Positions 28,587 to 31,543 of a stretch of 33,323 nucleotides of DNA are shown piece by piece. The first letter of the stretch is position 1, and every line of letters begins with the position of its first letter. A program made the position numbers and the translations under genes. Source of the DNA: Bacillus cereus (GTDB lineage Bacteria > Bacillota > Bacilli > Bacillales > Bacillaceae_G); NCBI RefSeq assembly GCF_002584535.1, contig NZ_NUOT01000060.1, positions 1 through 33,323 on the forward strand. The letters run 5' to 3'. The notes under the pieces are model-generated. The model was not told the DNA's origin, made no database searches, and worked only from the letters and a program-made list of their open reading frames with translations.

Positions 28587-28922
28587 ATGAGTTATGATAC
28601 AGTCGGTTCGTTGCAACGTATGCAACAATTGGAACAAGCAGAAGCTGCAGCCGGAAATAGATTAGTTTTAAAAAGAGCTAACACAACTTTAGATACATGG
28701 TTGGCAGTTATTGCAGTTATTTTATTCATTCCTACTTTCACTTTTTCTTTAGTAGCATTAGTGATTTATTATTTTACAAAGGAATTTTTCGCTAAAACAT
28801 GCTTAGTAAAAAACATAGCAACTGGTGAAAAATTTCACGTTGATAAACAAGAATTTAAGAAGTACAAGAAGGATTTTAAAAAGAAGGAAAAACAAGTTAG
28901 AAGGATATCTGATTTGAAGTAA
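28587..28922 (+). CDS. Small membrane protein of unknown function
   Basis: 111 residues. The N-terminus is short and amphipathic with Gln and Ala (QRMQQLEQAEAAAGNRLVLK). Two hydrophobic stretches close together (WLAVIAVILFIPTFTFSLVA and LVIYYF, about 43-69) form one long or two tight spans. The Lys-rich C-terminus (KKYKKDFKKKEKQVRR) is probably cytoplasmic. AAGGAGG lies upstream. It has its own candidate promoter and ends at the terminator shared with the opposing AbiTii unit. No family recognised; small membrane proteins in prophage accessory positions often act in superinfection exclusion, which is speculation here. Confidence 0.75.
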   Translation: MSYDTVGSLQRMQQLEQAEAAAGNRLVLKRANTTLDTWLAVIAVILFIPTFTFSLVALVIYYFTKEFFAKTCLVKNIATGEKFHVDKQEFKKYKKDFKKKEKQVRRISDLK

Positions 28923-28962: not shown

Positions 28963-29166
28963 TCAAAAAAGGTTTTCTATCCATTCTACAATAGGTTTCC
29001 AAAAAGAAAAAAGTAAAATAAATCCTACAACTATGGAAACTAAGAATGAAATAATAATAGGATGTCTTTCTGCAAAAGATTTTTTCTCGGGCGGCGTTGT
29101 AGCATTAAATTGATGACCAATAGAAGAATTTTTGATTTTGTTCTTATTGCCAAGTTTTATACTCAT
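28963..29166 (-). CDS. Single-span membrane protein sharing an N-terminal motif with the upstream AbiTii-like protein
   Basis: 67 residues from the ATG at 29164-29166, which has GGAGG seven bases before it; the frame extends six codons higher, but only over that site. Residues 2-20 (SIKLGNKNKIKNSSIGHQF) repeat the end of the AbiTii-like protein. A Pro/Lys linker (NATTPPEKKSFAERHP) and one membrane span (about 36-56, PIIISFLVSIVVGFILLFSF) follow, then a short tail with Trp and Glu (WKPIVEWIENLF). Its start overlaps the upstream stop as ATGA, so the two are translationally coupled. A beta-prone motif on a membrane anchor looks like an effector that is recruited or oligomerised by its partner. 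No known family. Confidence 0.8.
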   Translation of the reverse strand: MSIKLGNKNKIKNSSIGHQFNATTPPEKKSFAERHPIIISFLVSIVVGFILLFSFWKPIVEWIENLF

Positions 29167-29846
29167 TTTCGCCCTCCAAACCAATGACCCAATTTAGAAC
29201 CAGTAACTTTATTTTCATCTCCCATTTTTATGGATTCATCAAAAATTATATTTTCTATGTTGAAAATAACTTGTTCTTTTTTATTCTCATCCATTTCTAC
29301 CTGCGACTTTATATCTAGGTCATCCAGGTTTTCATATTGTTTTTCCAGTTCCAAAATTACATCTACGAGTTTAGATTTTACATTAGCAACTATTTTGCTT
29401 AGTACATTTGAAGAACATTTTATACTCATCCCAGCAATTTGCAATTCTTCTGTTGAGATAGCGTGACACAAAGCAGTTGGTACAACTTTTGCATAATTTA
29501 CGGCATCATCTTTGTCTATTACTTCCTGAAGCGTATTAATACTGTCATTTATGTACATTGTAGTAAGCTGATCAATCCGTTCTTGCGGTATCAATGCTTC
29601 TAATGGGACTTGAGCATTTGTATATTTAGTTGAATAGTTTACAAGAAATGTACCTACAGGTGCCCCTTTTATTATTCTATATGTAGGAATATCTTCCTTT
29701 GTATCAAATCCCTTTAACTCCCCTTGAATCCAATTCATAATTAATTCGTTATCAAGGTCTGATAGTATAACTTTTAACCTCAAGAGAATATTTTCAAGTG
29801 TTTCTTGACCATTAACCAAGTCTTTTAAAAGTTGACTTCTTGCCAT
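29163..29846 (-). CDS. AbiTii-like abortive infection protein
   Basis: 227 residues. The first 110 or so residues match the AbiTii domain as I know it: a helical start (SQLLKDLVNGQETLENILLR), then the LDNELIMNWIQGELKGFDTK signature, then the PTYRIIKGAPVGTF strand. A helical middle (about 120-195) follows. Residues 205-223 (SIKMGDENKVTGSKLGHWF) are a motif repeated at the N-terminus of the next gene. AbiTii takes its name from the two-gene AbiT phage-resistance system of Lactococcus lactis plasmids. Here it is in a prophage beside the endolysin, an accessory-gene position, with GGAG before ATG, a candidate promoter at 29879-29907 and terminators on both sides. Domain call is by eye. Anti-phage function is inference. 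Confidence 0.85.
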   Translation of the reverse strand: MARSQLLKDLVNGQETLENILLRLKVILSDLDNELIMNWIQGELKGFDTKEDIPTYRIIKGAPVGTFLVNYSTKYTNAQVPLEALIPQERIDQLTTMYINDSINTLQEVIDKDDAVNYAKVVPTALCHAISTEELQIAGMSIKCSSNVLSKIVANVKSKLVDVILELEKQYENLDDLDIKSQVEMDENKKEQVIFNIENIIFDESIKMGDENKVTGSKLGHWFGGRK

Positions 29847-29962: not shown

Positions 29963-30997
29963 TTATCGAATCCATTTAATATAAGACTCGTCGAAATAAA
30001 TCCAACCTTTATCTTTAATGTAAATCCAATCTTTATTTTCTCTTAGTTCAACTTCCCATTGTCCAATGCCAATACGACTCCTAACACCACTGTCAGCAAT
30101 GGAATAGTGGAAGCATTCTAATCCGTCTTTATTGTTCCAGATTACACCTTTAGTTTTACCATCTTTTTCGATTACGGCATCATGTTCTGTAATCCAATTG
30201 TTTTCAGCGATTTTAAACCAGAAACGTTTACCGTCCCAAGCATTTGCTAAATATTGATGACGAGAATCTTTATATACCTTTTTCACAACTTTTGAATTTT
30301 CATCTGGTTTTTCATATACCCATGATTCAGTTACATTAATTTTTAAATATCCAAGATTATCAATATTTTCTTCTGGTACTAAACTATTTTGCTTGTTAGT
30401 AAACCAAGATAAGGGCTTGTCTCCATTTAAAAGATTTAAATCAACTCTTCCGATTCCGTTTAAATATCCATTATCCGTGTATTGCCATAACTCACAAGGG
30501 AAATCTGGTTTAACTTGTGGTGTTCCATCATTCGTTCCATATCGAGGAATCCAAAGGAAATCAGCTTTTACATTTCTTAGATCATACATATTATACATAT
30601 GGTGCGATACATAAAAACCAACTTTCCAACCTGCTGCTTTACAAGTATCAATAAATGCTTGTGATGCTTTTGCTAAATCATTTAAGTTACCTTTGCTGTT
30701 CATAGATGCCACTGTATCATCTTCCACATCTAAAACAAGGAATTTCGCATTTTTATTTACACGTTTTAAAAAGTCATTCGCTTCTACAATTGCATCATTT
30801 ATACTTACATAACATCCATACGCATATGCAGCATGTGCAATACCTCTAGCTTCTAAATTTGATACATGTTGATTATATAATTCATCTACTACATTTGAAC
30901 CGTATTGCACTCGACAAATCGCTAACTCTAATTGTGGTGCCGCTACCTCCCAGTTAATATTGGCGTTCCATTTTGAAATATCTACAATTTGTCTCAT
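29963..30997 (-). CDS. Phage endolysin, GH25 muramidase with C-terminal SH3-like domains
   Basis: 344 residues. Residues 1-200 are a glycoside hydrolase 25 lysozyme: VDISKWNANINW with catalytic D6, FLVLDVEDD with D90/E92, and WQYTDNGYLNGIGRVDLNLL at the end of the barrel. The C-terminal 125 residues hold SH3b-like strands (INVTESWVYEKPDENSKVVK, then ENKDWIYIKDKGWIYFDESY) that would bind the cell wall. It cuts the N-acetylmuramic acid-beta-1,4-N-acetylglucosamine bond. No signal peptide, so export depends on the holin. GAAAGAGG precedes the ATG. It is last in the XhlA-holin-endolysin lysis cassette. Confidence 0.93.
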   Translation of the reverse strand: MRQIVDISKWNANINWEVAAPQLELAICRVQYGSNVVDELYNQHVSNLEARGIAHAAYAYGCYVSINDAIVEANDFLKRVNKNAKFLVLDVEDDTVASMNSKGNLNDLAKASQAFIDTCKAAGWKVGFYVSHHMYNMYDLRNVKADFLWIPRYGTNDGTPQVKPDFPCELWQYTDNGYLNGIGRVDLNLLNGDKPLSWFTNKQNSLVPEENIDNLGYLKINVTESWVYEKPDENSKVVKKVYKDSRHQYLANAWDGKRFWFKIAENNWITEHDAVIEKDGKTKGVIWNNKDGLECFHYSIADSGVRSRIGIGQWEVELRENKDWIYIKDKGWIYFDESYIKWIR

Positions 30998-31104: not shown

Positions 31105-31308
31105 TTATTCAATATCTTCTTTTCCTTCTTCATGATCAGACCAAATACCAAGAGCGATACCAACAGACAACAGATATGGAGCTAATTCATCTAGGAAACT
31201 CTTAGCTTCAGGAACTCCAAACTTTGTAAACAGAAATCCAAGCAATGAAAAAACCGCAACCCATGTTTTCCAGTTACGGAATCGCTTTTTGATATTTTCT
31301 TTTGACAT
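31105..31308 (-). CDS. Phage holin
   Basis: 67 residues from the ATG at 31306-31308, eight bases after GGTGG; an ATG four codons higher is too close to it. Basic N-terminus (KENIKKRFRNWK), hydrophobic segments TWVAVFSLLGFLFTKFG and YLLSVGIALGIW, acidic C-terminus (SDHEEGKEDIE). Size, two spans, charge layout and position between xhlA and endolysin identify a holin that opens the membrane for endolysin release. The previous stop is one base away. Confidence 0.85.
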   Translation of the reverse strand: MSKENIKKRFRNWKTWVAVFSLLGFLFTKFGVPEAKSFLDELAPYLLSVGIALGIWSDHEEGKEDIE

Positions 31309-31309
31309 A

Positions 31310-31543
31310 CTACATTCCACCTTTCATTAGTAACCCCAGTAAACCCGCTACAATTGCACCAATGATAATCCGAAGAATCCAGGTAGTATTGGCACTAATT
31401 TTGTCCAACTGTTTGTTAATGTTAACAATGTCCTTTTCGTTACCTAAAGTCCGGTTTTCCAAATGACGGATATCTTCTTTTATATCTTTTTGATCTGATT
31501 TGATTTGTTGGATCTCTTGCTTTAAATCGATAATTTCTTGCAT
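31310..31543 (-). CDS. xhlA: XhlA-type haemolysin/lysis protein
   Basis: 77 residues. A coiled coil (EIIDLKQEIQQIKSDQKDIK, then LENRTLGNEKDIVNINKQLD) is followed by one C-terminal membrane span (TWILRIIIGAIVAGLLGLLM) and a short basic end. This is the XhlA layout of PBSX, where XhlA works with the holin XhlB and endolysin in cell lysis. GAAAGGAG lies before ATG. First gene of the lysis cassette. Confidence 0.9.
   Translation of the reverse strand: MQEIIDLKQEIQQIKSDQKDIKEDIRHLENRTLGNEKDIVNINKQLDKISANTTWILRIIIGAIVAGLLGLLMKGGM

Follow-up and report, generated by a model that had tools for sequence, protein, structure and literature searches.

A short motif shared by an AbiTii-domain protein and a small membrane protein suggests an amyloid-type signalling pair in Bacilli and their prophages

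Introduction

Most accounts of amyloid-type signalling in bacteria concern NLR proteins, and the species involved are filamentous and multicellular (PMC7889193, PMC7885112). The plan of fungal and bacterial amyloid signalosomes comprises adjacent genes, a motif shared at the ends of their products and a membrane effector (PMC7889193, PMC7885112). For RHIM and fungal PP motifs, it is like-to-like assembly that activates the membrane effectors (PMC7885112, PMC9444067). Here, we analyse a locus of the same plan on a contig of Bacillus cereus (NZ_NUOT01000060.1), which at its full length of 33,323 nucleotides is called the window. A gene for an AbiTii-domain protein overlaps a gene for a small membrane protein, and a 19-residue motif recurs at the C-terminus of the former and the N-terminus of the latter. 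The mode of action of AbiTii was termed largely enigmatic in 2013 (PMC3710099), and no later mechanism was found in open PMC text.

A sequence-only reading of the window had proposed that the AbiTii protein senses infection and templates assembly of the membrane protein through the motif. Our analysis leads to a related reading, to which we assign a probability of roughly one half: the pair would be a compact sensor-effector module on prophages and other mobile or defence-rich regions, joined by in-register homotypic stacking, with membrane damage aborting infection.

Results

A shared motif at the junction of two overlapping genes

All features of the window given with coordinates below lie on the minus strand unless stated otherwise. 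The AbiTii-domain protein, the proposed soluble sensor, has 227 residues (29163–29846). The proposed effector, defined by its reading frame and an alignment of homologues (A6), is a single-pass membrane protein of 67 residues (28963–29166). The C-terminal motif copy SIKMGDENKVTGSKLGHWF covers AbiTii residues 205–223 (29178–29234) and the N-terminal copy SIKLGNKNKIKNSSIGHQF residues 2–20 of the membrane protein (29107–29163), with 10 of 19 residues identical. Both copies are present where the sequence-only reading had located them, as is the four-nucleotide ATGA overlap of stop and start (29163–29166). The best local alignment of the two whole proteins is this very motif match (BLOSUM62 score 60), a score that none of 2000 shuffles reached (top shuffle, 45). 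By eye, the AbiTii codons past the motif (GGA GGG CGA, 29169–29177) resemble the ribosome-binding site of the membrane gene, and the GGRK tail of the window AbiTii may in part reflect this signal.

Both genes and both motifs were found in 20 distinct pairs from Bacilli genomes and viral contigs, 13 of which have the four-nucleotide overlap; motif and neighbouring gene have stayed together in several genera, which supports the sequence-only reading. This set, on which the pair statistics are based, leaves out L033, which is nearly identical to L013. Four of its members (L045, L046, L113 and L114) were found with a membrane-protein profile and thus contain the membrane gene by construction. The AbiTii-based searches, in which a first scan of genome contigs gave no locus and a second gave nine, yielded four viral contigs and nine genome loci from nine genera, among them Paucisalibacillus (L012), Fictibacillus (L017) and Sporolactobacillus (L018), and all 13 carry the adjacent membrane gene and both motifs. 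The AbiTii proteins of the pairs are 41–64% identical to that of the window. In 18 of 18 pairs tested, no ungapped match of one whole protein to the other is better than the tail-to-head motif; as good a match arose in 0 of 2000 shuffles for 15 pairs and in 5, 50 and 56 of 2000 for L015, L020 and L002, respectively.

Co-variation between matched partners

If the two motifs stack like to like, each segment is expected to resemble that of its own partner more than that of a stranger. In the 20 pairs, true partners reached a mean motif score of 53.75 compared with 47.79 for strangers, and none of 50000 permutations did as well. When the set was restricted to 12 lineages with AbiTii identities below 62%, the values were 54.67 and 46.55 (1/50000 permutations as good). 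Seven of ten tree-independent contrasts were positive, one was zero and two were negative, corresponding to an exact one-sided p of 0.0195, a level reached only once L113 and L114, both from the membrane-protein profile, had joined. The signal is confined to the exact register. In a scan of 3720 pairings of 17-column segments (18 pairs), the four top values, 4.1–5.9, all belonged to the motif register and the next was 1.9, and sliding the register by 1–6 residues gave −1.1 to 1.0. The positions that co-vary most strongly are 221/18 and 223/20 (AbiTii/membrane protein); L018 is distinct from L016 and L034 at co-varying positions. After omission of any one genome, no more than 3 of 5000 permutations did as well for the 12 lineages and none for the 20 pairs; removal of the last three motif columns gave 13/20000 for the 20 pairs and 124/20000 for the 12 lineages. 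The co-variation that the sequence-only reading had anticipated between the partner motifs is thus observed.

The likeness does not stem from a fresh duplication, in agreement with the earlier reading. In the window, the two 57-nucleotide motif segments share 33 of 57 bases. Across the set, the codon at identical residues is the same in 94 of 192 within-pair comparisons and in 1571 of 3290 comparisons across genomes. Because codon sharing within pairs is as frequent as across genomes, recent duplication or DNA copying between the motif segments was rejected.

Predicted structure of the two proteins

The window AbiTii protein matches Pfam PF18864 (E=3.7e-27) with 96.2 bits, above the curated cut-off of 27.6 and thus placing it in the family, and the AbiTii profile of PADLOC (E=3.2e-28). 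Its AlphaFold model (m722a58b4cdce) has a predicted local distance difference test score (pLDDT) of at least 90 at 147 of 227 residues and comprises an alpha+beta domain folded with confidence up to residue 204 (residues 1–204, 29235–29846). Residues 205–227, the sole stretch with pLDDT below 50, begin exactly at the motif, which is accordingly predicted to be an unstructured tail behind a folded domain. Column entropy on the AbiTii side is 1.23 bits in the motif, 0.92, 1.49 and 1.17 bits in the thirds of the domain and 1.72 bits in the last six residues.

No Pfam family scored over its cut-off in the window membrane protein, and PADLOC and NCBIfam contained no match. A transmembrane helix spans residues 37–55 (29002–29058; mean hydropathy 2.89; helix 36–54 in the model), followed by a short C-terminal helix (28969–29001; model helix 56–66) terminating in a conserved IExLF (A6). 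In the model, whose overall predicted template-modelling score is 0.33, both motif and linker form coil of low confidence (block means 52–60), and helices start from residue 31. The motif (residues 2–18) is the most conserved part of the protein, with 0.62 bit, and the linker the least conserved, with 2.14 bits. Over the 15 residues ahead of the membrane helix, the net charge is positive for 17 of the 20 proteins and zero for the other three, and in 18 of 20 the net charge before the helix exceeds that after it. Membrane topology commonly follows the positive-inside rule. From this rule and the charges before the helix, the motif is predicted to lie on the cytosolic side, together with AbiTii.

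One effector family behind a different upstream protein

At L103 (G866 C2), a membrane protein of the same effector family (E=2.5e-8; 0/5000 shuffles for the membrane part alone) sits behind a 160-residue protein instead of AbiTii. Neither AbiTii nor another family was recognised in this protein in Pfam, NCBIfam or PADLOC; a sub-threshold hexapeptide-repeat match (E=0.078) lies over the motif. The tail of the upstream protein, ISIGENTSIGNDNAIGDNAFV, matches the head of the effector, VKIERGTKIGDKNAIGDNASV (0/5000 shuffles). The locus amounts to a natural swap, in which the upstream protein and both motif copies are different together and the effector family is retained. The gene preceding this pair has sub-threshold MauJ and weak CARF matches.

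Distribution of pair and motif

The pair represents the output of a single AbiTii clade and not a property of AbiTii in general. A PF18864 profile run against 398 genomes of the class found 14 places in 13 genomes, six with the pair (L021, L022, L023, L033, L034 and L035, the first three being loci already counted) and eight without. Among the latter, L030–L032 bear their own long C-terminal extension, L036 lacks motif and extension alike, other C-terminal regions occur in L037 and L039, L038 contains a Ymh domain, and only a fragment is left in L040. In contrast, all 17 full-length close relatives from the AbiTii-based searches, the window included, have the pair; a truncated plasmid relative (L004, approx. 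40% identity) does not. The sequence-only reading would have been undermined if AbiTii homologues in most genomes lacked the motif or the neighbour; the outcome is mixed, as this is the case at class level and not among close relatives.

Some AbiTii proteins outside the clade deserve mention. In L030, L031 and L032 (283–305 residues), a Q/N-rich stretch, e.g. IQIQQNTVHSTQ in L032, lies between the AbiTii domain and the C-terminal region and is possibly another short assembly motif. Enterococcus-type AbiTii proteins without the motif are followed by a different protein (L005:2501–3698, L036:1489–2495), which in L005 has 192 residues and an N-terminal hydrophobic stretch. On a Lysinibacillus capsici plasmid (L004:1019–2379), a TIR-domain gene (PDC-S66, ThsB-like) abuts the AbiTii gene, here shortened to 164 residues, and on the Lactococcus plasmids L003 and L098 a TIR gene stands beside AbiTii on the opposite strand. 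Plasmids contributed 17 records with distant AbiTii only and no relative of the membrane protein (three matches at E 6–8, attributed to chance).

The membrane-protein profile returned 27 rows, seven above 45 bits and 20 below 26 bits. Two of the low-scoring rows (L065, L066) are the AbiTii-side motif of known pairs, and of the other 18, 17 were discarded as relatives because they look like chance hydrophobic matches (L049 was not judged). A decayed membrane-protein copy, L047 (G501 C107), was considered as a lone effector without AbiTii; as a weak 13-residue AbiTii-tail match lies just upstream (E=0.011), it is a decayed pair and no exception.

In 397 genomes of the order, a 20-column motif profile scored at E<2e-7 in 12 places, which are distributed over six genomes as two neighbouring sites each. 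Since part of the profile derives from these six genomes, what is informative is the lack of other strong matches. A decayed relative comes next (2.9e-4), and the five others (E 0.003–0.03) were rejected as fragments of 10–13 positions in unrelated frames. A strict DNA version of the motif matched nine viral contigs: four are known pairs, two encode an unrelated 279-residue protein and three a phage protein of 87–90 residues with the motif at its N-terminus. The latter (L088:2653–2925, L089:2643–2906, L092:1736–1999) opens with MSIYIGNNNKIKNSIIGNN, which reproduces the effector-side motif almost perfectly. By eye, this protein lacks a membrane helix, and among the frames listed nothing that resembles AbiTii adjoins it; it could be a decoy or another effector.

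Genomic neighbourhoods

In the window, a GH25 endolysin gene (29963–30997; Pfam Glyco_hydro_25, 1.8e-24; phrog_291 endolysin, 4.6e-58) lies directly upstream of the pair, followed by a holin gene (31105–31320; phrog_297, 6.9e-12) and, further upstream, a minor tail protein gene. With these neighbours, the pair closes a prophage late region, where accessory genes are commonly located. Beyond the pair, a convergent gene (28587–28922) encodes a phrog_13363 protein with a hydrophobic segment. Lysis genes directly adjoin the pair in the window, L001, L002 and L011 and, by eye, in L113; two genes intervene in L010. Elsewhere, within 3 kb of the pair, we found AbiD and TnsD (L015), the PADLOC candidates PDC-S05 (L012) and HKD+Snf2 (L018), a caspase-domain gene (L014) and an integrase gene (L016). 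A protein-kinase gene belongs to the neighbourhood of L017, and the one neighbour of L019 tested had no PHROGs match. In a tally over nine genome loci, from which the neighbours of L013 and L020 were left out, five have defence, caspase-domain or integrase genes within 3 kb. The neighbourhoods favour a role in defence without proving it. That several loci lie in prophages or close to defence genes supports the proposal of a compact two-gene prophage defence; other copies of the pair have no adjacent lysis genes.

Discussion

The evidence fits a sensor-effector pair linked through direct homotypic stacking. AbiTii would be the sensor, soluble and folded up to a C-terminal motif that is disordered. 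The membrane protein would be a minimal effector, whose N-terminal motif lies in the cytosol and is connected through a linker of variable sequence to a single transmembrane helix and a short helix at the C-terminus. Upon infection, sensed by AbiTii, the AbiTii proteins would cluster and their tails align into a beta assembly, to which the motifs of the membrane protein would be recruited by homotypic stacking in register. Once clustered, the transmembrane helices would damage the membrane, so that the cell is killed or arrested and the infection aborted. The linking step is the one covered by sequence evidence, namely the pair itself, the motif in both proteins, its constraint, its predicted disorder, the co-variation, L103 and the neighbourhoods; sensing, amyloid-like order of the assembly, membrane damage and cell death are steps that we infer. 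That AbiTii is the sensing part fits the varied outputs to which it is joined elsewhere (HEPN-type domains, Ymh in L038, the neighbour in L005).

Overlapping genes and co-variation would suit any direct contact, including a constitutive complex in which the motif docks AbiTii at the membrane, or in which AbiTii is an antitoxin that silences a membrane toxin through the motif. Such an arrangement gains some credit from the two-component AbiT system of C. catus, whose AbiTi inhibited growth of E. coli. However, the cognate AbiTii did not neutralise it, and AbiTi and AbiTii of Lactococcus were non-toxic (PMC3985639). A like-to-like motif would also be unusual in an anchor or antitoxin, and the models predict the motif to be unstructured in each protein alone. 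We consider a constitutive complex unlikely, albeit the likeliest of the alternatives. The disorder and the single consensus in both proteins would equally be accounted for if the two motifs bound one and the same third protein, from phage or host, and were alike without touching. Yet such a partner offers no plain reason why matched similarity should be restricted to the exact register, and in L103 both copies depart together from the usual motif, which makes this explanation improbable.

About as improbable is a gene set for lysis timing or superinfection exclusion, with the membrane protein as holin or antiholin accessory and AbiTii as its regulator. It would explain the lysis genes that adjoin several of the pairs, the window, L001, L002, L011 and, by eye, L113, but not L012, L014, L015, L016 and L018, which lack adjacent lysis genes and lie within 3 kb of defence, caspase-domain or integrase genes; moreover, AbiTii is an abortive-infection domain. 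Finally, the motif copies abut across the stop/start junction like a split tandem repeat, as would be expected of a functionless relic of tandem duplication and gene split. Several residues are nevertheless invariant while codons differ within pairs as much as across genomes, and the adjoining linker of the membrane protein is unconserved (2.14 compared with 0.62 bits in the motif), and we regard such a relic as very improbable indeed.

Several observations weigh against a homotypic signalling pair. The tree-independent test is modestly significant; at 18 pairs it was suggestive and not significant (38/512), and the contrasts window–L001 (−1) and L019–L020 (−7) run in the opposite direction. 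The AbiTii copy of the motif, at 1.23 bits, shows no stronger conservation than the domain (0.92–1.49). L103 stands alone, relatives of its upstream protein being absent from 141 genomes, plasmids and viral contigs. The pair is rare: a membrane protein above 40 bits was present in 7 of 397 genomes, one of them with a decayed copy, and neither protein was found in 50,697 phage records (tblastn, E 0.001 and 1). In a comparison with published peptides, in which BASS1–10 were represented by a single BASS3 peptide, the motif matches the latter weakly (4.2 bits, 20 of 2000 shuffles as good) and three others not at all (492, 628 and 1395 of 2000 shuffles). The strict RHIM tetrad (V/I)Q(V/I/L/C)G occurs in 3 of 40 motif copies, too few to call the motif a RHIM; with the Q ignored, 34 of 40 copies conform to (V/I)x(V/I/L/C)G (consensus from PMC9444067). 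Furthermore, a published screen in E. coli found no toxicity for AbiTi and AbiTii of Lactococcus (PMC3985639).

If a homotypic signalling pair is indeed at work, such a two-gene version, totalling 294 residues in single-celled Bacilli and their prophages, would be remarkably small. AbiTii would gain a concrete, testable output, and the matched-partner signal predicts which pairs should or should not function together. More tentatively, and with somewhat less than even confidence, the pair may exemplify modular, minimal homotypic-motif signalosomes in unicellular Bacilli and prophages, in which interchangeable small sensors (AbiTii, the unrelated 160-residue protein of L103) feed one family of small single-helix membrane effectors and co-evolving RHIM-like motifs set partner specificity. 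Such signalosomes would be wired as in necroptosis, yet would dispense with NLRs, kinases and helical-bundle pore formers.

Comparison with known systems

Among systems with AbiTii, the AbiT system of Lactococcus (AbiTi/AbiTii) likewise combines an AbiTii domain with a second gene (PMC3985639). Its partner protein AbiTi inhibits E. coli growth when taken from C. catus, though not when taken from Lactococcus (PMC3985639), and the C. catus result is the closest experimental hint. The membrane protein had no match in PADLOC at E up to 1 (whether the library holds an AbiTi model was not checked). In contrast to the present pair, no shared motif of its kind appears in the available portions of the AbiT descriptions (PMC3710099, PMC3985639), nor did open PMC text yield any AbiTii or AbiT paper describing one. 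In the AbiTii-HEPN fusions (Ymh, c2405), AbiTii is also joined to an effector (PMC3710099); there the link is covalent, here it would be a short motif in two proteins.

The RHIM and fungal PP systems (RIPK1-RIPK3, PNT1-HELLP) share with our motif a hydrophobic-x-hydrophobic-G core; three residues past the core our motif has an N, as does a published BASS3 peptide (PMC8086366). Differing from RHIM, the central Q is mostly K or R on the membrane-protein side, and neither a kinase nor an NLR is involved. As in NLR/Bell systems with BASS motifs, adjacent or overlapping genes encode proteins with a short shared motif at their ends, one of them membrane-targeting (PMC7889193). The proposed sensor is, however, AbiTii, the motif is C-terminal in the sensor and N-terminal in the effector, the reverse of the published layout (PMC7889193), and the hosts are Bacilli genomes and prophages. 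Where an NLR system has a receptor with NB-ARC or NACHT and repeats, AbiTii alone scores above its Pfam cut-off, with one folded region and a tail; where it has a Bell- or HeLo-type helical bundle, the effector has 67 residues, one transmembrane helix and no Pfam family (no dedicated Bell profile was used). With no NLR, no Bell-type bundle and the RHIM glutamine mostly lost, we rejected filing the pair as a member of the BASS or RHIM groups. The earlier proposal of an amyloid-type signalling pair is supported in part. By analogy, the pair would work like an amyloid signalosome and is not a member of that class as currently defined.
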